Below, piece after piece: positions 13,777 through 26,392 of a DNA stretch of 61,218 nucleotides. Source of the DNA: Faecalicatena contorta (lineage in GTDB: Bacteria; Bacillota; Clostridia; Lachnospirales; Lachnospiraceae); contig NZ_JAFBIZ010000004.1 of assembly GCF_021531995.1 (NCBI RefSeq), forward strand, positions 1 through 61,218. Reading direction: 5' to 3'. The number at the start of each line of letters is the position of its first letter. The first letter of the stretch is position 1. The notes beneath the pieces are model-generated. The model had not been told where the DNA came from. It saw nothing but the letters and a program-made list of their open reading frames with translations, and did not search any database. The position numbers were made by a program, and so were the translations under genes.

Positions 13777-16122
13777 CTAACCTGTCGTCCTTTCTATTTC
13801 TATGATTCCTTCAATCTGCCGAAGCTTCTTGATCACTTTAGACAGTTCTTCTCTTCCGTGAACGATAAATCCGGTTTCTATCGTCGCTGTTCCCTGCTTA
13901 CTGGTTCGAACATTCATGGATTTGACATCTACATCTTCTGCCGTAAAGATCTTTGAGATCTCCATCAGCATTCCCTGTCTGTCATAAGCATACATCTTAA
14001 TCTCTGCCAGATACTGACCCACATTCTGATCTGCCACATCATTTTCCCACTCAATCTCAATCAGACGCGCCCGCTCTGCCTCAGTCAGATGGATCATATT
14101 CACACAGTCCGTACGATGAATGGAAAGACCTCTTCCTCTGGTCACAAATCCTACGATCTCGTCACCCGGGACCGGACTGCAGCACCTGGAGAAACGGACT
14201 GCCATATCATCGATTCCTTTTACGACAATTCCGCTCTTTGACTTGGCAATGTGTACCTTATTTCTGGCTGCCTCTGCGACTCTCTCCAGTACAACTTCAT
14301 TCGTAAGCTCCTGCTTATGTTCCTTACTGTACTCCTCCATCAGGCGGTTCACTACCTGACCTTCCTTCAGACCGCCATGTCCGATGGCTGCCAGTACAGC
14401 ATCCCAATCCTTGAATCCATATTTTCTCTGGACAACCTCCTGATACTTTGGATTCATAATATCACTCGGATTGATTGATTTTGCCTTACAGTAGGCAGCA
14501 ATCATATCTTTTCCTTTTATGATATTATCTTCCTTAAATTCCTTTTTAAACCATTGATTGATTTTATTCTTTGCCTGTGTACTCTTTACAATATTCAGCC
14601 AGTCACGGCTTGGTCCCTTGGAATTCTGAGATGTCAGAATCTCGATTCTGTCTCCGTTCTGGATCTTATAATCAATATTTACCAGCTTTCCATTGACTCT
14701 GGCACCAACCATCTTATTACCGACCGCACTGTGAATCGCATATGCAAAATCAATCGGAGTAGATCCGTTCGGAAGATTTTTTACATCCCCCTGCGGAGTA
14801 AAACAGTATACATCTTCTGCAAACAGATCCAGGTCTCCTTTGATCAGATTCAGAAATTCCCGGTTATCTGACATATCTCTCTGCCATTCCAGAATCTGAC
14901 GAAGCCAGCTTAACTTCTCTTCTTCCTGCGCTTCCACACTCTTCTTACCATCATTGGATTCTTTGTATTTCCAGTGTGCCGCAATACCATATTCCGCTGT
15001 CTTATGCATTTCTTCTGTACGGATCTGGATCTCAAACGGCTGTCCTACCGAACTCATCAGTGTTGTATGAAGGGACTGATACATATTCGGCTTCGGCATG
15101 GCAATATAATCCTTGAATCTTCCCGGAATCGGCGTATACATCTCGTGGATCACACCCAGAGCCGCATAGCAGTCTTTCACAGAATCCACGATGATCCGCA
15201 CAGCAAACAGATCATAGATCTGATCCACCGTTTTGTCCTGATTGACCATCTTCTTATAGATACTGAAGAAATGTTTGACACGCCCATTCACTTCTGCTTT
15301 GATATTGGCATTTTTCATGTGTGTTGACACTTCTTCAACAATCTGCTGAACAAACTCTTCCCGTTCCGTTTTCCTTGCATTGATCTGACTGACCAGATCA
15401 AAAAACACTTCCGGCTGAGAATACTTCAGTGCAAGATCATCCAGCTCTGTCTTGATCTTGGATATACCGAGCCTCTGTGCGATCGGTGCATAGATATCCA
15501 TCGTCTCTTTCGCCTTTTCCTTCTGCTTTGCAGGCGTCATGAACTGCAGCGTACGCATGTTATGCAGACGGTCTGCAAGCTTGATAATAATAACACGGAT
15601 ATCCTTTGCCATCGCAAGAAACATCTTTCTTAAGTTTTCTGCCTGTACATCTAATTTATCGGAAGAATATGACAATCTTCCCAGCTTGGTAACGCCGTCT
15701 ACAAGCAGCGCCACCTCTTCTCCAAATTCCCTCTTTATCTCATCTTCAGTAACCTCTGTATCTTCCACAACGTCATGAAGCATGCCTGAAGCAATCGTCT
15801 CTTTGTCCATCTCAAGATCTGCCAGAATGATCGCAACCCAGAGCGGATGTACAATATACGGCTCTCCGGACTTTCTTCTCTGATCTCCGTGGGCCTTGGA
15901 AGCAAGTTCATACGCTTTCTCAATCATTGTAACATCGGTCGATGGATGATACTTACGGATACGGGCAATTAACATGTCATACAGACGATCTGGATTCTCA
16001 TAATCATTCTTATCTTTTACTGCATGACCATCCACTACTTCAAGTCCCTTTGCATTGTCTTTCGTCAGAGCCTCCGGTGCAATACGGTCATCCAGCGATT
16101 CATAAGTCGTTACCTTTGACAT
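13777..16122 (-). CDS. relA: Bifunctional (p)ppGpp synthetase/hydrolase (Rel)
   Basis: Stringent response enzyme of 781 residues. The HD hydrolase domain is intact (HP at 92-93, HDVVED at 116-121). The synthetase domain carries RFKDYIAMPKPN, the RXKD form typical of bifunctional enzymes. TGS (VYCFTPQGDVKNLPNGSTPIDFAYAIH), zinc-finger/helical (RCCSPVPGD) and C-terminal ACT domains follow. Both activities are therefore predicted. Order apt-relA-MBL is common in Clostridia. A GGAAGGAGG site precedes ATG 16122. Confidence 0.97.
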   Translation of the reverse strand: MSKVTTYESLDDRIAPEALTKDNAKGLEVVDGHAVKDKNDYENPDRLYDMLIARIRKYHPSTDVTMIEKAYELASKAHGDQRRKSGEPYIVHPLWVAIILADLEMDKETIASGMLHDVVEDTEVTEDEIKREFGEEVALLVDGVTKLGRLSYSSDKLDVQAENLRKMFLAMAKDIRVIIIKLADRLHNMRTLQFMTPAKQKEKAKETMDIYAPIAQRLGISKIKTELDDLALKYSQPEVFFDLVSQINARKTEREEFVQQIVEEVSTHMKNANIKAEVNGRVKHFFSIYKKMVNQDKTVDQIYDLFAVRIIVDSVKDCYAALGVIHEMYTPIPGRFKDYIAMPKPNMYQSLHTTLMSSVGQPFEIQIRTEEMHKTAEYGIAAHWKYKESNDGKKSVEAQEEEKLSWLRQILEWQRDMSDNREFLNLIKGDLDLFAEDVYCFTPQGDVKNLPNGSTPIDFAYAIHSAVGNKMVGARVNGKLVNIDYKIQNGDRIEILTSQNSKGPSRDWLNIVKSTQAKNKINQWFKKEFKEDNIIKGKDMIAAYCKAKSINPSDIMNPKYQEVVQRKYGFKDWDAVLAAIGHGGLKEGQVVNRLMEEYSKEHKQELTNEVVLERVAEAARNKVHIAKSKSGIVVKGIDDMAVRFSRCCSPVPGDEIVGFVTRGRGLSIHRTDCVNMIHLTEAERARLIEIEWENDVADQNVGQYLAEIKMYAYDRQGMLMEISKIFTAEDVDVKSMNVRTSKQGTATIETGFIVHGREELSKVIKKLRQIEGIIEIERTTG

Positions 16123-16158
16123 ATTAATGCCTCCTTCCCTTCTAAATTTTCTTTTCTT

Positions 16159-16683
16159 TTATTTCCCCGGATAGATGATCACAGAATCCACATCGTATCC
16201 CTGAAGTCTTTCTCTTCCCTTTAATCCTGCAAGTTCCATGAGGAAAACCGTTTTTACAACCTCTCCTCCCAGTCCTTCGATCAGCTTCACCATAGCCTCG
16301 TTGGTTCCGCCTGTAGCAATCAGGTCGTCAATGATAACAACCTTCTGTCCCGGCTTGATCGCGTCACGGTGCATCTCAATCTCCGCCGTACCATATTCCA
16401 GTTCATATCGAATTGAAACCGTTTCACACGGAAGTTTTCCTTTTTTTCTGATTGGTATAAATGGTTTGTGCAGATTATACGCGATCGGAACGCCAAAAAT
16501 GAATCCTCTTGATTCCGGTCCGACGATCACATCAAAGTCAACATCCTTAAGTTTTTCCTGCATCAGATCGATGGCCAGTGCCAGTCCGTCTGCATCCTGC
16601 AGAACGCTGGTTACATCTCTGAATATAATTCCCGGTTCAGGAAAATCCGGAATACTTCTCACATATTCTTCTATCGGTTTCAT
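16159..16683 (-). CDS. apt: Adenine phosphoribosyltransferase
   Basis: Salvages adenine to AMP using PRPP. The 174-residue protein has FRDVTSVL, VGPESRGFIFG and the PRPP-binding motif VVIIDDLIATGGT at residues 115-127. It lies upstream of relA with a 36-nt gap and has its own predicted promoter, so apt-relA may be transcribed independently of recJ. Confidence 0.96.
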   Translation of the reverse strand: MKPIEEYVRSIPDFPEPGIIFRDVTSVLQDADGLALAIDLMQEKLKDVDFDVIVGPESRGFIFGVPIAYNLHKPFIPIRKKGKLPCETVSIRYELEYGTAEIEMHRDAIKPGQKVVIIDDLIATGGTNEAMVKLIEGLGGEVVKTVFLMELAGLKGRERLQGYDVDSVIIYPGK

Positions 16684-16716
16684 GATAATCTCTCCATTCT
16701 ATTAAAATACTTATTT

Positions 16717-16745
16717 AGTATAGCATTACTTCCTGTAATTTTCAA
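16717..16745 (-). promoter_or_regulatory. Predicted sigma-A promoter of apt-relA
   Basis: On the minus strand, TTGAAA (16740-16745) and TATACT (16717-16722) are separated by 17 bp in the recJ-apt gap. Confidence 0.75.
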
Positions 16746-16769
16746 ATTATTCTGCATAATTCTACACGT

Positions 16770-18530
16770 TTATCGATAATGTGTAATGACAATCTGCGGT
16801 GTGACTCTTCCGCGATATTCATTGATATCCGGGTAAAATGTTACTGATACAGACATTCCGCCATCTTTTCCATTTAAAAATGAATGTACAGCAGGCTTCC
16901 CATACTTCTGTTCCAGATATTCCAAAAACTCTTCCACACCACGAAACAAAAGTGCCTCCATTGTCGTATAGGTTGTATCTCTTACCTGCATCTTCAGAAC
17001 GTTTTTGTTTCTGCCCAGAATCCGTCCGCTTAGAAGCTCTACATTTCTTGCCGCAAAAACCGGCTTTGTATTCCCTTTTCCAAACGGTTCCAGAAGCGAC
17101 AGTTCCTGTACCAGAGATTCACTGACACAGGAAAAGGGAAGTTCCATATCGATCGTTACTTTTTCCATCAGATCTTCCGGTGTCATGACACAATTTTCAT
17201 TCAACATAAGACGAAGCTTCTCTACATTATTTCTTTCCAGTGATATCCCGGCTGCCAGCTTATGTCCCCCGAATCTTAACAATAATTCTTTACATCTGCT
17301 CAGTTCCTCATACATATTGTATGCATCAATCGATCTGCCTGAACCTTTGACTGCACACTCCGAATCTGTAAGAACAAGTACCGGACGATAATAGGTTTCT
17401 CTGATTCTGCCGGCTACAATTCCCGCAAGGCTCTCATGACAATCCGGGAGATAGATGACCAGCACTCGATCCGCAAGCATCCCGGTTGCCTCCACCTGAT
17501 GCTTTGCCTTTTCTACCGCCACATCCGTCAGATCTTTTCTGCTGTCATTCAGCGCTTTCAGATCTCCCGCAAGAATATCCGCTTCCTTTTTTCCCGCTGC
17601 ACGCAGAAGCCTAAGTGTTCTCTTCGCCGTGTCCAGCCGCCCGCCGGCATTCATGCACGGTCCCAACACGAAACCGATATGATAGGCATTCAGTCGTTCT
17701 TTTTCCACACCAGTACATTCGATCAGCGCATTCAGCCCGTAGCTGTGTGTTCGCCGCAGCATCTGAAGACCTTCTTTTACAAAGATCCGGTTCTCATCCT
17801 CCAGATCCATCACATCTCCGACTGTAGCAATCGCCACATTCTCAATCAGGTAATCCAGATCACTGGCATCCGCCCCCATAGCCTCTGTCAATGCTTCCAC
17901 TACTTTATAGGCAATAGCGGCGCCACACAGACCTTTGTATGGATACGCACATCCCGGCTGCTTTGGATCGATCACCGCGTCAGCCGGAGGAAGAAGATAT
18001 ACCTTTTGACCAGTTTCTTCCGCATACGGAACCTCATGATGATCTGTCACGATAATCGTCATACCGAGACGTTTTCCATATGCAATCTCTTCTGCTGCCG
18101 CAATTCCATTATCACAGGTAACCAGTGTATCAATTCCATCCCGATATGCCCGCTCAATCAGATCCACATTCAATCCATATCCATCTGTGATGCGGTCCGG
18201 AATATCGCTGTCTGCAACAGCACCTGCTTTTTCCAGTCCTTCCAGGAGAATATACGTTGCATTTACCCCATCGATATCATAATCGCCAATGATGCGGATC
18301 CGTTTTCCATCTGCTATTTTTTCCCTCAGAATATCAATCGCTTTGCCCATATCTTTCATCAGCATACCGTCGTACAGATCCACGATTGTACCGTTCAGAT
18401 ATCGTTCAATGGCTGCATCTCCAATGACATCTCTGTTACGGATCAGGCATGCGAGTCTTGGACTGATTCCATATTTTTTTCCGATTCTTTCAAAATCCGC
18501 ACCTTTCCTCAGAAGTGTCCACCGTTCCAT
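16770..18530 (-). CDS. recJ: Single-stranded-DNA-specific exonuclease RecJ
   Basis: A 5'-3' ssDNA exonuclease used in recombination and mismatch repair. DHH-family metal motifs are present: GDYDIDG at residues 82-88 and TDHHE around 162-166. A DHHA1-like segment with GGHKLAAG follows, then an OB-like C-terminal domain. At 586 residues it is near the usual bacterial core length but lacks the longer C-terminal extension of Bacillus RecJ. It follows the terminator after secDF. Confidence 0.93.
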   Translation of the reverse strand: MERWTLLRKGADFERIGKKYGISPRLACLIRNRDVIGDAAIERYLNGTIVDLYDGMLMKDMGKAIDILREKIADGKRIRIIGDYDIDGVNATYILLEGLEKAGAVADSDIPDRITDGYGLNVDLIERAYRDGIDTLVTCDNGIAAAEEIAYGKRLGMTIIVTDHHEVPYAEETGQKVYLLPPADAVIDPKQPGCAYPYKGLCGAAIAYKVVEALTEAMGADASDLDYLIENVAIATVGDVMDLEDENRIFVKEGLQMLRRTHSYGLNALIECTGVEKERLNAYHIGFVLGPCMNAGGRLDTAKRTLRLLRAAGKKEADILAGDLKALNDSRKDLTDVAVEKAKHQVEATGMLADRVLVIYLPDCHESLAGIVAGRIRETYYRPVLVLTDSECAVKGSGRSIDAYNMYEELSRCKELLLRFGGHKLAAGISLERNNVEKLRLMLNENCVMTPEDLMEKVTIDMELPFSCVSESLVQELSLLEPFGKGNTKPVFAARNVELLSGRILGRNKNVLKMQVRDTTYTTMEALLFRGVEEFLEYLEQKYGKPAVHSFLNGKDGGMSVSVTFYPDINEYRGRVTPQIVITHYR

Positions 18531-18609: not shown

Positions 18610-20778
18610 CTACTTTTTATTATTGCCTTTTACAGCCGGCTTCTTACCGATCTTTACCTTCATTACATACCACAGTGCACCTGTAATACATACAGAAGAA
18701 TATCCGCCGCATATGATACCTGCCATCAGCGGTGCTGCAAATTCACGAATAGAGCTTACTCCCATGATAAACAGTATCGCTACCATGACAAATGTTGTCA
18801 GTGAAGTATAGATACTTCTTGTAAGGGTCTGGGTAATACTCTTATTCACCACTTCTGCAAGATCTGTTGTCTTCGTCTGGTAATGAAGTTCCTCACGGAT
18901 ACGGTCAAAGATAACGATGGTTGCATTGATGGAGTAACCAACGATCGTCAGCATACATGCGATAAATGTATTACCAACTGAGATTCTCGTCACTGCATAG
19001 AATGCCAGTACCACCAATACATCATGAAGCAATGCTGTAACTGCACTCGTTGCAAAACGCACATCTTTGAAACGGAACCAGATATACAGAAGCATAAAAA
19101 TCGTTGCTATGATCACTGCGACAACTGCATCCTGACGCATCTCATTACTGATCGTAGAACTGATATTCTCCGCTGTTATCGTAGATTCATCTACTCCAAA
19201 GTTTTCTGCCAGTGCCTGATTCAGTGCTTCACGCTGATCCAGTTCCAGTGTCACTGTTTTAATGATCACCTGGTTGGAACCAGCCACCTTCTGTGTCTGT
19301 ACATTATGATCTCCTGTCACTTCTTCTACAACAGGAACGATCTCCTGATCGATCTCATCAATTGTGTAATCTTTATCAAATTCTACCGTCGTAGAGGTAC
19401 CGCCCTTGAAGTCCAGACCATAAGCAAGTGCTCCGTTTCCTCTGGAGGAATTTACACCCATCACTGCAAATCCGATCAAAATGATCGCCAGTGATACTGC
19501 AAAGAACACATGTTTCTTCCCAAGGAAATTGACCGGTGTTCTTTCTTTTTTCGGACGATAGTACAGTTTCTCACTCTTTAAGCCGATTCCATAGAACGCA
19601 AATACGATCAGACGTGTAATCACCAGTGCAGTGAACATGGATACGATAATACCGATTGCCAGTGTCTGTGCAAAGCCCTTTACCGTACCTGAACCCTTGA
19701 ACCAGAGTACCGCTGCCGCGATCAGGGTCGTAACATTACCGTCAACGATCGCAGACATTGCTTTCTGGAAGCCGGTCTTCAGAGAATTCTTGACGCTCTT
19801 TCCCTTCGTCATCTCTTCACGTACACGCGCAAAGATGATAACATTCGCATCAACCGCCATACCGATACTCAGGATGATACCTGCAATACCAGGAAGTGTC
19901 AGCGTGATATTAAATGCATTCAATATCAGTAACACAATCTCTGTATAAATAATCAGGGCAAGACTGGATGCCAGACCCGGGAGATAATATACCCAGATCA
20001 TAAACAGGAATATGATGATCAGACCGATCACACCTGCTTTTAAGCTGGTACTGACTGCCTGTTCGCCTAGCTGCGCTCCGACTACATTGGAACGTAACTC
20101 TTCCAGTTCCAGTTTCAGACCACCAATACGGATCGTAGAAGCCAGAGCATCCGCCTCTTCATAAGTAAAATCTCCGGTAATATAAGCCTGTCCGCCGGTA
20201 ATTGCCTGCTGTACGACCGGGCTGCTGATGACTTCGCCGTCATAGATAATGGAAATCTGATTTCCGACATTCGCTTCTGTCGCCTCTGCAAACTTTTCTG
20301 TTCCCTCTTCATTCAGATTCAGTTCTACAGAATATTCCTTATTTCCCATATCATCCTCACCGGATTTTGCTGACGCACTCTTTACATCAGAACCGGTAAG
20401 CACTGTCTCTCCGTCCTGTGTCTGGAATTCCAGAGATCCCGGTTTTCCAAGTTCATCTAGAATCGTATTTGCATCTGTTACACCCGGTATCTCAATATTG
20501 ATACGGTCTTTTCCTTCCTGATATACGCTGGACTCATTGCTGTACTGTTCCACACGCTTCTGGAGTTTGTAGATCGTGTCACTCATCTCTTCTTCCGTCG
20601 GATTGTCATCCTTTACCTGGTAAGTGATACTGACACCACCTGCCAGATCCAGTCCCAGTTTGATATTTTTCATCGCACCGGTTCCTGTTTTACCGAATCC
20701 CACCAGAACTGTAAATCCCATGAGTGCAATCAGGATTCCAGTCAGAACAAGACTCAGTATACTTTTTCCTTTTTTCAT
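18610..20778 (-). CDS. secDF: Fused protein-export membrane protein SecDF
   Basis: SecD and SecF, proton-driven partners of SecYEG, are fused in one 722-residue chain, as in many Firmicutes. The SecD half (to about residue 400) has one N-terminal membrane segment, the large external P1-type domain and a five-segment bundle with GMAVDANVIIFARVREE. The SecF half has its own first segment and GYSINATIVIFDRIREE. It follows the SCIFF maturase gene by 34 nt; this neighbourhood is conserved in Clostridia, but a functional link has not been proven. Confidence 0.96.
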   Translation of the reverse strand: MKKGKSILSLVLTGILIALMGFTVLVGFGKTGTGAMKNIKLGLDLAGGVSITYQVKDDNPTEEEMSDTIYKLQKRVEQYSNESSVYQEGKDRINIEIPGVTDANTILDELGKPGSLEFQTQDGETVLTGSDVKSASAKSGEDDMGNKEYSVELNLNEEGTEKFAEATEANVGNQISIIYDGEVISSPVVQQAITGGQAYITGDFTYEEADALASTIRIGGLKLELEELRSNVVGAQLGEQAVSTSLKAGVIGLIIIFLFMIWVYYLPGLASSLALIIYTEIVLLILNAFNITLTLPGIAGIILSIGMAVDANVIIFARVREEMTKGKSVKNSLKTGFQKAMSAIVDGNVTTLIAAAVLWFKGSGTVKGFAQTLAIGIIVSMFTALVITRLIVFAFYGIGLKSEKLYYRPKKERTPVNFLGKKHVFFAVSLAIILIGFAVMGVNSSRGNGALAYGLDFKGGTSTTVEFDKDYTIDEIDQEIVPVVEEVTGDHNVQTQKVAGSNQVIIKTVTLELDQREALNQALAENFGVDESTITAENISSTISNEMRQDAVVAVIIATIFMLLYIWFRFKDVRFATSAVTALLHDVLVVLAFYAVTRISVGNTFIACMLTIVGYSINATIVIFDRIREELHYQTKTTDLAEVVNKSITQTLTRSIYTSLTTFVMVAILFIMGVSSIREFAAPLMAGIICGGYSSVCITGALWYVMKVKIGKKPAVKGNNKK

Positions 20779-20812: not shown

Positions 20813-22204
20813 TTACTCTGCAAGCGCAGCTTTTATCATAATCGCACATTCCACACGCTTCCGCTGCATTTCACAGCCGATCTCATATGTATCGTGGATT
20901 GTTCCATGGAAATTATAGGAATTGGCCATGCATCCGCCGCTGCAGTAGAACTTGGCAAAACAGTTTCTGCAGTTTTCTTTGGAATATACATTGCAGCTTC
21001 TGAAATCGTCTGCAATCCCGGGTCTTACAATACCGTCATCTACATTTCCCATCAGGAAATCTTCCTGCCCGACAAACTGATGACACGGATACAGATCTCC
21101 CCACGGAGTCACTGCCAGATACTCTGTTCCGGAACCACACCCTGACAGTCTCTTGGCAACACAGGGCCCACCGTTTAAGTCTATCATAAAATGGAAGAAA
21201 TTAAAACCTTTTCCTTCTTTTTCACGTTCAATCATGATCTTGGCAAGCTTGTCATACTCTTCCATGATCTGCGGAAGGTCTTCCCTGCGGATTGCGTACG
21301 GATCACTTTCGTCTCCGACCACCGGTTCGATGGACATCTGTTTGAACCCAAGATCTGCAAAATGCAGGATGTCATTGGAAAAGTCCAGATTATTTCTGGT
21401 AAATGTTCCGCGGATGTAATACTTCTCCTGATTGCGACTGTCCGCCAGTTTCTGGAACTTCGGTACAATCAGGTCATAGCTTCCTTTTCCATTTCGGAAC
21501 GGACGCATCTGATCATTGATTTCTTTTCTTCCGTCGAGACTTAAAACTACATTATCCATCTCTTTATTGATAAATTCCTGAATCTCATCATTCAGCAATA
21601 CGCCGTTCGTCGTAACCGTGAACCGGAAGTGCTTATCATGAATCTTCTCCTGCTCTCTTCCATATGCCACCAGGTCTTTTACCACCTGCCAGTTCATCAG
21701 AGGCTCTCCTCCAAAGAAATCCACTTCCAGATTATGCCGGTTACCGGAATTTTCAATCAGAAAGTCCAGCGCTTTCTTTCCGACCTCATAGCTCATCAGC
21801 GCACGTCTTCCATGGTACTCGCCTTCTTCCGCAAAGCAGTACTTACATGCAAGATTACAGTCATGGGCAATATGAAGACAGAGTGCTTTTACAACCGTTT
21901 TCCTCTGTTTCACAATATCAACCATACATTCATATGTATCTTTTACAAACAGCTGTCCGCCTTCTGTCAGCTCAATCACATCTGCCAGCGCATCCCGGAT
22001 CTCATCCACTTCATAGGTCTGTCCCAGTTCTGCATTCAGCTTTTCAAGTACTTCCGGCTGCTTCAAAGATTCCGCCGTCGGTTCCTCCTCAGGCGTGTTT
22101 AACTTCTCTATCACGTCATAACATACATCATCTACTACATGGACAGATCCACTATAGACATCCATGATTATATTATATCCATTATTACGATACTGGTGTA
22201 TCAA
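20813..22204 (-). CDS. scfB: SCIFF peptide maturase (radical SAM/SPASM, thioether-forming)
   Basis: A radical SAM enzyme that installs cysteine thioether crosslinks in the SCIFF precursor encoded just upstream (known for CteB and other ScfB enzymes). The cluster motif is CNLACKYC (cysteines near 116, 120 and 123), followed by FFGGEPLMN. The SPASM cysteines include CGSG and CRNCFAKFYCSGGC. The N-terminal part resembles a peptide-binding RRE-like segment (HVVDDVCYDVIEKL). I place the start at TTG 22204: GAAGGGAG lies 10 nt upstream and the protein then begins as typical family members do. An in-frame ATG at 22282 has no ribosome site. Confidence 0.93.
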   Translation of the reverse strand: MIHQYRNNGYNIIMDVYSGSVHVVDDVCYDVIEKLNTPEEEPTAESLKQPEVLEKLNAELGQTYEVDEIRDALADVIELTEGGQLFVKDTYECMVDIVKQRKTVVKALCLHIAHDCNLACKYCFAEEGEYHGRRALMSYEVGKKALDFLIENSGNRHNLEVDFFGGEPLMNWQVVKDLVAYGREQEKIHDKHFRFTVTTNGVLLNDEIQEFINKEMDNVVLSLDGRKEINDQMRPFRNGKGSYDLIVPKFQKLADSRNQEKYYIRGTFTRNNLDFSNDILHFADLGFKQMSIEPVVGDESDPYAIRREDLPQIMEEYDKLAKIMIEREKEGKGFNFFHFMIDLNGGPCVAKRLSGCGSGTEYLAVTPWGDLYPCHQFVGQEDFLMGNVDDGIVRPGIADDFRSCNVYSKENCRNCFAKFYCSGGCMANSYNFHGTIHDTYEIGCEMQRKRVECAIMIKAALAE

Positions 22205-22245
22205 GGCTGTTGTTCTCCCTTCTATAAATCCATGGACAACAAGAA

Positions 22246-22268
22246 ACAGCGACCCATAAGACCGCTGT
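22246..22268 (-). other. Intercistronic hairpin between scfA and scfB
   Basis: On the minus strand ACAGCG and CGCTGT form a 6-bp stem with an 11-nt loop, followed by a U-rich stretch (UUUCUUGUU). It lies between the precursor and maturase genes, where a partial terminator would leave more precursor than enzyme mRNA. Attenuation is inferred. Confidence 0.45.
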
Positions 22269-22293
22269 CCCGAGTATTCCATATGGTTTTAAA

Positions 22294-22434
22294 TTATTTG
22301 TTGTGTTCGCAAGTCTGGTTTCCTACTGTACAGGAAGTCTTACATGCTGACTGGCAGGATGTCTGACATTCGCCGCATCCGCTCTTTTTCAGATTACTGT
22401 TCATGGGTTTGTTCAATGATTTCACATGTTTCAT
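22294..22434 (-). CDS. scfA: SCIFF ribosomal peptide precursor (six cysteines in forty-five residues)
   Basis: A 46-codon gene, easily missed because of its size. The predicted peptide begins MKHVKSLNKPMNSN and has exactly six cysteines at positions 20, 23, 27, 31, 35 and 42, with TSC and ACKTSC spacing, ending EHNK. This is the signature of the SCIFF family (TIGR03973), found across Clostridia with a dedicated maturase. AAGGAGGG lies nine bases before ATG 22434, and a near-consensus promoter is just upstream. The maturase gene follows. The biological role of the mature thioether peptide is unknown; no dedicated protease or exporter gene is seen, although secDF is next in line. Confidence 0.95.
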   Translation of the reverse strand: MKHVKSLNKPMNSNLKKSGCGECQTSCQSACKTSCTVGNQTCEHNK

Positions 22435-22470: not shown

Positions 22471-22499
22471 ATTATAACATCTTGGTAATATTTTCGCAA
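22471..22499 (-). promoter_or_regulatory. Predicted sigma-A promoter of scfA-scfB-secDF
   Basis: On the minus strand, TTGCGA (22494-22499) and TATAAT (22471-22476) are spaced 17 bp, with TG one base before the -10 (extended -10). Confidence 0.85.
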
Positions 22500-22548: not shown

Positions 22549-22923
22549 TCAAGATATCATTCCTCCGATCATACCGCCTCCTGCACAGAGAATCAGAGTC
22601 GTCACTATGCCGGTTCCGCTTCCTTTCAGTGTGTGATATACTCCAAGCGTAATCAGAAGCAGAAGAGCAAAATAGCTGATTCCTATCCCCAGCCCCCAGA
22701 GGAATCTTCTGGTTCCGGCAAGCTTGCCGATCGCGATTCCTCCAATCAGCGTCGACACCACATAGATTGCAGTAACAGCCGCCTGAATGATTCCTTCATT
22801 TAATTCCAGTTTATACAAAGCCATTGCAAGCACGAGCAGCAGTATTCCTGTAATCACATAGGCAACCAGAAGCGACTTAAGCACCCACATCACTTTGGAA
22901 TCTTTTTGCATTCTTCTATTCAT
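22549..22923 (-). CDS. TIGR04086-type small membrane protein
   Basis: A 124-residue protein with four predicted membrane segments (about residues 13-35, 47-67, 72-95 and 103-124) and many glycines (LIGGIAIGKLAG, GGGMIGGMI). It matches my recollection of the TIGR04086/YrzE-like family found next to SCIFF and secD genes in Clostridia. Its function is unknown. AAGGAGGG precedes ATG 22923, and it lies 53 nt after spoVT, so it may be co-transcribed with it. Confidence 0.75.
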   Translation of the reverse strand: MNRRMQKDSKVMWVLKSLLVAYVITGILLLVLAMALYKLELNEGIIQAAVTAIYVVSTLIGGIAIGKLAGTRRFLWGLGIGISYFALLLLITLGVYHTLKGSGTGIVTTLILCAGGGMIGGMIS

Positions 22924-24758: not shown

Positions 24759-25610
24759 CTACACAACGATCCGTATGCTGATATAATTGTTACCATCCAC
24801 TTTGTCTGTACATACGAAGATATCTCCTTTATACTTCTGAATCAACATTTTTGCATTGTATAATCCCAGCCCGTGTTTCCCCGCATCACTTTTCGTCGAA
24901 TATCCTTTTTCAAAAAAGCGGTTGATCTCACCGACTTTTTCTTCATCGATCTGGTTCTTTATGGAAAATACCAGTCGGTCATGTTCGGAATCTATCTCCA
25001 TCATGACCTGATTCTTTGCTTCTGTGCATGCCTCATAAGCATTATCTACCAGTGTTCCGACAATCTCGATCAAGTGATGCTCTGAGATACCGGAGATAAT
25101 CTCCAGGCTCTTTACTTCCACCTCTGTTTTTACATAAAAAGGCGCCCGCACGATCTTACTGTATAGAAATCCGGCAAGCACTTTGTCACTGATCCGAAGG
25201 AGCGGAAGATATTGCCTGCTTTCATCATCTCTGACTACTTCCGTGATATATTCCGACTGTCTTGCTACCAATTCTTCATAGTTGTCCACCGTCAGATGCA
25301 TATTCAATATGGCATTCATATGATTATCAAATTCATGCTGCTTGATACGGATCTCCTTAACCAGTTCTTCCAGTGGCTGGATATAGTGCTGATACAGCTT
25401 GAGCTCTGCCTCCTGTTTCAACATGAGCATATAAGTCTTTCGCCAGTCTGCAATCCCCCAGAGAACCACAACAACCATCAGCAGAAACATAAGGAAGATC
25501 CGATAATCAAATGTTCTGCTGATCAGAAAATCTACAACCAGATATACGGACACCAGAAGTGCCAGCACACAAAAGATTCGATATAAAAACTTTCTTACCC
25601 ACTCAATCAC
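24759..25610 (-). CDS. GHKL-type sensor histidine kinase
   Basis: A 283-residue kinase of the AgrC/GHKL class. Two hydrophobic segments cover about residues 8-55 with almost no external loop, so sensing within or at the membrane is likely. A coiled stretch leads to the histidine motif RIKQHEFDNH (H near residue 92). Then come the N box GTLVDNAYEA and the ATP lid HGLGLYNAK. GTG 25610 is the likely start: GGGAGG lies seven bases upstream and the gene overlaps the end of the response regulator by eight bases. The unit appears to begin with the regulator. No peptide or exporter gene is adjacent. Confidence 0.88.
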   Translation of the reverse strand: MIEWVRKFLYRIFCVLALLVSVYLVVDFLISRTFDYRIFLMFLLMVVVVLWGIADWRKTYMLMLKQEAELKLYQHYIQPLEELVKEIRIKQHEFDNHMNAILNMHLTVDNYEELVARQSEYITEVVRDDESRQYLPLLRISDKVLAGFLYSKIVRAPFYVKTEVEVKSLEIISGISEHHLIEIVGTLVDNAYEACTEAKNQVMMEIDSEHDRLVFSIKNQIDEEKVGEINRFFEKGYSTKSDAGKHGLGLYNAKMLIQKYKGDIFVCTDKVDGNNYISIRIVV

Positions 25611-26325
25611 TGACAAGCCTCCCGATCTCTGACTTATACGTCACACCTATCTCCACAACATCCTTACAGTCCTTCAACTTTATCACACGGTTCACCGTAT
25701 CAAAGTACTCCACCTCTCTTCGGTTGACCACAAACATCCGATGACACTGGAGAAACATATCCTCTGGAATCTTCGAAAGAATCTGCTTCAGACTGATATA
25801 CGGAATATCCCAGTTTCCGTTTTTCATATGGATCCGTATTCCCCTTGGGATTGCTTCTATATATCGGATATTATCACATTTCACCTGATAGTTGACTCCA
25901 TCCTTCCTGACATGGATGACCGGAGGATCCTCCTGTTTTTCCTTATCCAGCACTTTACGAACCACTTCCTTCACCTGCTCCGGACAAAACGGCTTCATAA
26001 TATACTGATAACAGTGCAGTTCACGGTAAGCCTGCATCTCCATAGCACCGATCGCAGTCACCATCACGATCGGAGTAAACGTATACCGAAACTGTTCCCG
26101 GACTTCTCTTGCGAAGAGAATCCCTCCGATATCCTCCCGGTCTGCCCCTCCAAGATTCACGTCCAGCAGGAACAGACCATATCGGATCTCTGACTTCAGA
26201 AGATGTTTTGCCTCCGCATAAGAGGAGGCAGTATGTACGCGTATCTCTTCCGAATAATCTGTTAACATCTTTTCCAGAGCCTCTCTGGAATTCTGATCGT
26301 CCTCCAGAAGTAACACATGTACCAT
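25603..26325 (-). CDS. LytTR-family response regulator
   Basis: A 240-residue regulator. The receiver domain begins VHVLLLEDDQ, with phospho-acceptor D55 in LFLLDVNLGG and the conserved lysine in YIMKPF. The C-terminal LytTR DNA-binding domain contains IRYIEAIPRGIRIH and FLQCHRMFVVNRREVEYF. ATG 26325 has GGGGGAGG upstream. It is paired with the GHKL kinase downstream, the AgrA/AgrC-like arrangement. LytTR regulators usually bind paired direct repeats; no obvious target was recognised beside it. Confidence 0.9.
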   Translation of the reverse strand: MVHVLLLEDDQNSREALEKMLTDYSEEIRVHTASSYAEAKHLLKSEIRYGLFLLDVNLGGADREDIGGILFAREVREQFRYTFTPIVMVTAIGAMEMQAYRELHCYQYIMKPFCPEQVKEVVRKVLDKEKQEDPPVIHVRKDGVNYQVKCDNIRYIEAIPRGIRIHMKNGNWDIPYISLKQILSKIPEDMFLQCHRMFVVNRREVEYFDTVNRVIKLKDCKDVVEIGVTYKSEIGRLVSD

Positions 26326-26392
26326 CAGACCTCCCCCTCTCTGATTCTGGAATTCTGAATACGATTCTGTCCAATAATCCAATGATCATTCT

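Follow-up and report, generated by a model that had tools for sequence, protein, structure and literature searches.

The window, the whole 61,218-nucleotide stretch of Faecalicatena contorta DNA that was analysed, carries an adjacent SCIFF precursor gene (scfA) and maturase gene (scfB). As a member of a known family, the locus is ordinary and well conserved; the initial annotation, which proposed a complete SCIFF locus here, is correct, and the finding is unsurprising. Both products score far above the curated equivalog cut-offs (TIGR03973 and TIGR03974), and the whole genome contains a single above-cut-off copy of each. Taken as a whole, this is probably a chromosomal housekeeping-type SCIFF ranthipeptide locus in which scfB is attenuated, ScfB cross-links ScfA and the product is a signalling-type peptide. 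To the known family we add, modestly, a hairpin between the two genes, genomes that keep the pair without SecD and a clade with Gly at residue 36. The features are listed in Table 1.

Table 1. Features of the SCIFF locus and its surroundings (window positions)
Feature	Position	Strand	Evidence
TIGR04086-family membrane protein, upstream of scfA	22549..22923	(-)	TIGR04086, 88.6 bits, cut-off 30
Sigma-A-type promoter of scfA, TTGCGA-17-TATAAT, extended -10 TG	22471..22499	(-)	Consensus scan
scfA, 46-aa SCIFF precursor	22294..22434	(-)	TIGR03973, 76.4 bits; six Cys by direct reading
Terminator-like hairpin with T-rich tail, between scfA and scfB	22243..22271	(-)	13 pairs, 6 GC; folding z -3.8
scfB, radical SAM/SPASM SCIFF maturase, TTG start, 463 aa	20813..22204	(-)	TIGR03974, 812 bits; phmmer to CteB
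secDF, fused Sec accessory subunits, next gene 3' of scfB	18610..20778	(-)	TIGR01129 and TIGR00966 above cut-off
recJ-apt-relA, remainder of conserved block	13777..18530	(-)	ORFs and order in related loci
recJ (presumed)	16770-18530	(-)	ORF; order repeated in related loci
apt (presumed)	16159-16683	(-)	ORF; order repeated in related loci
relA (presumed)	13777-16122	(-)	ORF; order repeated in related loci

The scfA reading frame (22434 to 22294, MKHVKSLNKPMNSNLKKSGCGECQTSCQSACKTSCTVGNQTCEHNK) has 46 codons and a stop; the interval first annotated, 22204-22434, has the starts of scfA and scfB as its two ends. Direct reading of the translation places exactly six cysteines at 20, 23, 27, 31, 35 and 42, as had been claimed, in a Cys-rich core (20-42, GCGECQTSCQSACKTSCTVGNQTCE) that follows a leader of roughly residues 1-19. 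The peptide contains no Asp. It matches NCBIfam TIGR03973 over the entire profile (1-43 of 43; 76.4 bits, E 1.2e-21, cut-off 50) and a profile search of 14 control genomes gave no TIGR03973 match, so the reading frame is not a chance one. A SCIFF precursor is characterised by six Cys, conserved in their spacing, within about 45 residues; the spacing seen here is common to nearly all of 92 loci, and the core is the standard SCIFF core, almost invariant throughout the class. Compared with most relatives, the leader is shorter by one residue and has divergent residues, which accounts for the score of the window peptide lying below those of other family members.

ScfB matches TIGR03974 with 812.3 bits (cut-off 425) and aligns over its full length with CteB (5WGG/5WHY; phmmer 597 bits, residues 1-459). 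The radical SAM CX3CX2C motif is CNLACKYC at 116-123, and Cys 348, 356, 374, 412, 415, 421, 425 and 444 align with the SPASM cysteines of CteB, in agreement with the annotated radical SAM/SPASM maturase next to the precursor. The N-terminal region aligns in sequence with that of CteB, whose structure includes an RRE (PMC8172795). The gene starts at TTG 22204, one residue ahead of the beginning of the TIGR03974 profile, with AGAAGGGAG upstream of it. ATG 22282, the first ATG of the mechanical open reading frame, was rejected as the start because the profile begins one residue past the TTG and because the extra codons would overlap the hairpin. Start codons other than ATG are found in 44 of 85 scfB genes.

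Among characterised systems, CteA-CteB (thermocellin, Clostridium thermocellum) and Tte1186a-Tte1186 have the equivalog families and the type of Cys-rich core in common with the window pair, which differs from them in its shorter, divergent leader, belongs to another genus and has a predicted cross-link. Freyrasin (PapA-PapB, Paenibacillus) is a ranthipeptide made with a related radical SAM/SPASM enzyme; ScfB reaches 281 bits against rSAM_PapB but falls below the cut-off of 340, and freyrasin has six Cys-Asp links (PMC8172795), whereas ScfA has no Asp with which to form them. ScfB also matches the not_ScfB orphan maturases (NF040492) at 582 bits, below the cut-off of 855, and unlike these it is paired with a genuine ScfA.

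In a sample of 120 genomes from the same family, 113 have TIGR03973 above cut-off, as do 163 of 196 genomes of the class; among good genomes the counts are 96 of 101 and 140 of 159. These figures bear out the statement that SCIFF is nearly universal in Clostridia. The five good family genomes and 19 good class genomes that have no SCIFF indicate that it is not strictly essential. ScfB is present in every ScfA-positive genome checked for both (the match in G290 is split over two contig pieces), even when the genes are unlinked, as they are in families f6 and f59 (L074 (G123), G003; L073 (G169), G190, G122, G146). ScfA-like peptides are also encoded in nine faecal records that are titled 'Bacteriophage sp.' and carry no annotation (MT835472.1 and eight more); the DNA in these contigs is probably bacterial.

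The scfA promoter matches the consensus at 10 of 12 positions, lies 36 bases ahead of the ATG and is followed by the ribosome site GGAGGG. It is retained in both congeners (L062, L063) and in L102, and a promoter score of at least 10 occurs upstream of scfA in 53% of the 92 loci as compared to 3% of shuffles, in line with the near-consensus promoter first annotated. Family profiles likewise confirm the upstream TIGR04086-type protein, which occupies the equivalent place in many loci as a conserved neighbour, and secDF as the next gene. The statement that secDF are the only downstream genes was too narrow, since co-directional genes continue past secDF; from sequence knowledge we take these to be recJ, apt and relA. 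The conserved block is tgt-yajC-TIGR04086-scfA-scfB-secDF-recJ-apt-relA. The order scfA-scfB-secDF, whose conservation the initial annotation had put forward as a check, holds in 29 of the 31 Thr36-type loci from the same family, often with recJ-apt-relA next, and secD lies downstream in 12 of 21 Thr36 loci from the rest of the class (hand count; a few loci end at contig ends). Clustering of the neighbours over 60 loci returned recurrent TIGR04086 and secDF together with genes that we presume, again from sequence knowledge, to be tgt, yajC, queA, ruvAB, recJ, apt and relA. No peptidase or ABC exporter recurs among the clustered neighbours of these 60 loci, and the reported lack of a dedicated protease or exporter holds. 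An AgrC/AgrA-like (LytTR) two-component pair is located about 2.3 kb upstream of scfA (window 24759-26382). A link to SCIFF was rejected, as just one congener among 60 related loci keeps the pair.

The position of the thioether in CteA differs between studies: from Cys32, it is formed onto Thr37 in vitro or onto Thr34 in E. coli (PMC8326336, PMC8172795). These residues correspond to Cys31, Thr36 and Thr33 in the window peptide. Thr33 is invariant in 93 copies of the core, and residue 36 is Gly in nine, Ala in one and otherwise Thr. With the Gly36 form as the search seed, 80 loci were returned, all with Thr33, Cys31 and Gly36; as this set was selected for Gly36, its informative part is the constancy of Thr33 and Cys31 only. 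In the ScfB tree all Gly36 partners fall in one group (support 97-99), so the substitution probably arose once, in an ancestor, and was retained in lineages that include Oscillospiraceae, Anaerovoracaceae and Peptoniphilaceae. Because glycine lacks both a beta and a gamma carbon, a non-alpha link to residue 36 is impossible in this clade. The Gly36 clade and the invariant Thr33 would favour Thr33 (the Cys-Thr34 model of CteA) over Cys-Thr37, at least in that clade; for the window peptide the alignment favours the Thr33 site, short of proof. Two unusual copies were also seen. In L104 (G310:C100:26764-27024) two complete SCIFF units, both of the Gly36 type, are fused in tandem in one reading frame of 90 aa with 12 Cys in two cores. 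L117 (G209:C27:12555-12680) is a second SCIFF copy in which the fourth Cys, the thioether donor, is replaced by Ser and Thr36 by Ala; it has its own ScfB, branching beside the Gly36 clade, and a normal copy (L118) is present in the same genome.

The 13-pair hairpin between scfA and scfB was absent from the first description of the locus. A comparison of the scfA-scfB gap with shuffles in 82 distinct loci gave z below -2 in 77 (mean -4.5). A hairpin with a T tail was scored by a rule of our own, devised once the folds of the first set were known and applied unchanged to the second. It is found in 68 of the 82 first-set gaps, the window included, as compared to 8 of 86 control stretches upstream, 4 of 86 inside scfB and 4 of 29 after scfB; the difference from the upstream control has p about 1e-23, a value that overstates certainty as related loci are not independent. 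The second set (80 loci, GTDB contigs) has it in 55 of 71 gaps, with 3% of shuffles, 12 of 78 upstream stretches and 22 of 77 stretches after scfB as controls, so that control stretches carry it at 4-29% over both sets. A recurrent CAGCG...CGCTG stem in the family loci carries compensatory substitutions, one pair having gone from G-C to A-T and another from A-T to G-C, and the pairs that flank it are formed in 113 of 132 cells (shuffle mean 95, maximum 107). An Rfam scan of the whole window matched only a tRNA; the hairpin therefore belongs to no known RNA family.

We infer from these folds that the hairpin would act as a leaky intrinsic terminator, setting the precursor:maturase ratio by keeping scfA mRNA plentiful and scfB mRNA scarce. 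The TTG start here and the non-ATG scfB starts elsewhere would act in the same direction. RiPP loci are well known to use attenuators between the precursor gene and the enzyme gene; a narrow literature search, with most subscription journals beyond reach, returned no description of one for SCIFF. The terminator step has a rival, in which the hairpin stabilises the mRNA 3' end or marks a processing site. Poor T tracts in some hairpins, including the broken tract of the window (TTTCTTGTTGT), would fit that role, but most hairpins have T-rich tails, and the counts of 68/82 and 55/71 require one; we regard stabilisation or processing as unlikely, though a serious competitor to termination. More broadly, we propose with not quite even confidence that a conserved attenuator hairpin sets peptide:enzyme stoichiometry across Clostridia, and that ScfB enzymes of a separate clade mature a Gly36 form without the Thr37 acceptor, pointing to Cys32-Thr34 as the functional link.

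The conserved neighbourhood could also be explained if SCIFF were functionally tied to the Sec accessory machinery, being exported by SecDF/YajC or modulating it. scfAB does lie between yajC/TIGR04086 and secDF in many lineages, and in f6 scfA alone stays beside secDF with scfB elsewhere. Good genomes that have no SCIFF also more often have no clear SecD (E <= 1e-30; 3 of 5 in the family, 8 of 19 in the class, tallied by hand), but this association (Fisher p 0.006 and p 0.03, respectively) is weak and uncorrected for ancestry. Against such a tie, scfAB persists in about 30 good genomes that have no clear SecD (7 of 96 SCIFF-positive family genomes and 24 of 140 class genomes). These include closed or near-closed genomes (G091, G031); a gap in the assembly may account for some of the SecD absences, as scfA lies close to the end of a contig in G006 and G073. 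L067 and L092 keep scfAB although secDF is gone from between scfB and recJ, the Gly36 clade has secD within 3 kb in only 1 of 80 loci, and L127 (G107) has yajC-TIGR04086-secD with no scfAB in the usual place. SecDF is therefore not obligatory for the retention of SCIFF. We reject an obligate Sec linkage, and the Sec-linked handling raised by the initial annotation is unsupported as a requirement; a functional tie of any kind seems improbable. Less probable still, and in our judgement very unlikely indeed, is that SCIFF is a bacteriocin, as it is counted in some genome-mining papers. In favour of that assignment, the chemistry is that of a RiPP. Bacteriocin cores, unlike that of ScfA, are not near-invariant. 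The ScfA core is near-identical across clostridial families, leaving no target selectivity; no exporter or protease cluster recurs nearby; and no SCIFF was found on ordinary plasmids, the sole match in the plasmid collection being a 2.6-Mb record. An antiSMASH-based survey does group SCIFF with bacteriocin classes, noting limited evidence of activity (PMC13289728), but PMC8326336 likewise argues against an antimicrobial role. We reject the bacteriocin assignment on core conservation and genomic context.

The role was initially given as unknown, which is out of date: as reported in PMC8102284 and PMC8326336, when the genes for the SCIFF precursor and its maturase were disrupted in C. beijerinckii, sporulation genes went down and agr went up (Chen et al. 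2020), linking SCIFF ranthipeptides to quorum sensing and sporulation, and a review places SCIFF under quorum sensing (PMC8326336). A single study, of two clostridia, is the source of the quorum-sensing claim. SCIFF is also present in Faecalibacterium and Anaerococcus, which are non-sporeformers, and this suggests a role wider than sporulation.

In the mechanism we propose for the window locus, the strong promoter would drive plentiful short scfA transcripts, most of them ending at the hairpin downstream of the gene, and leaky read-through together with the weak TTG start would yield a smaller amount of ScfB. The RRE-like N-terminal domain of ScfB would bind the ScfA leader, and the radical-SAM cluster and two SPASM clusters would cross-link Cys31, the fourth Cys, to a nearby Thr. 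The acceptor is most likely Thr33, and the predicted product is a non-alpha thioether. Probably the mature peptide has a conserved physiological or signalling role and is not a bacteriocin. Support from cross-link chemistry and from the knockout comes from the literature (PMC8326336, PMC8172795, PMC8102284).

The locus itself is one more member of a family present in most Clostridia, and the comparison is more useful than the locus. The persistence of SCIFF without SecDF weakens the Sec-linked idea. The widespread putative attenuator is testable in any clostridium with RNA 3'-end data, and the natural variants (Gly36, Ala36, the copy without the fourth Cys and the fused double copy) are useful for settling the disputed cross-link position.
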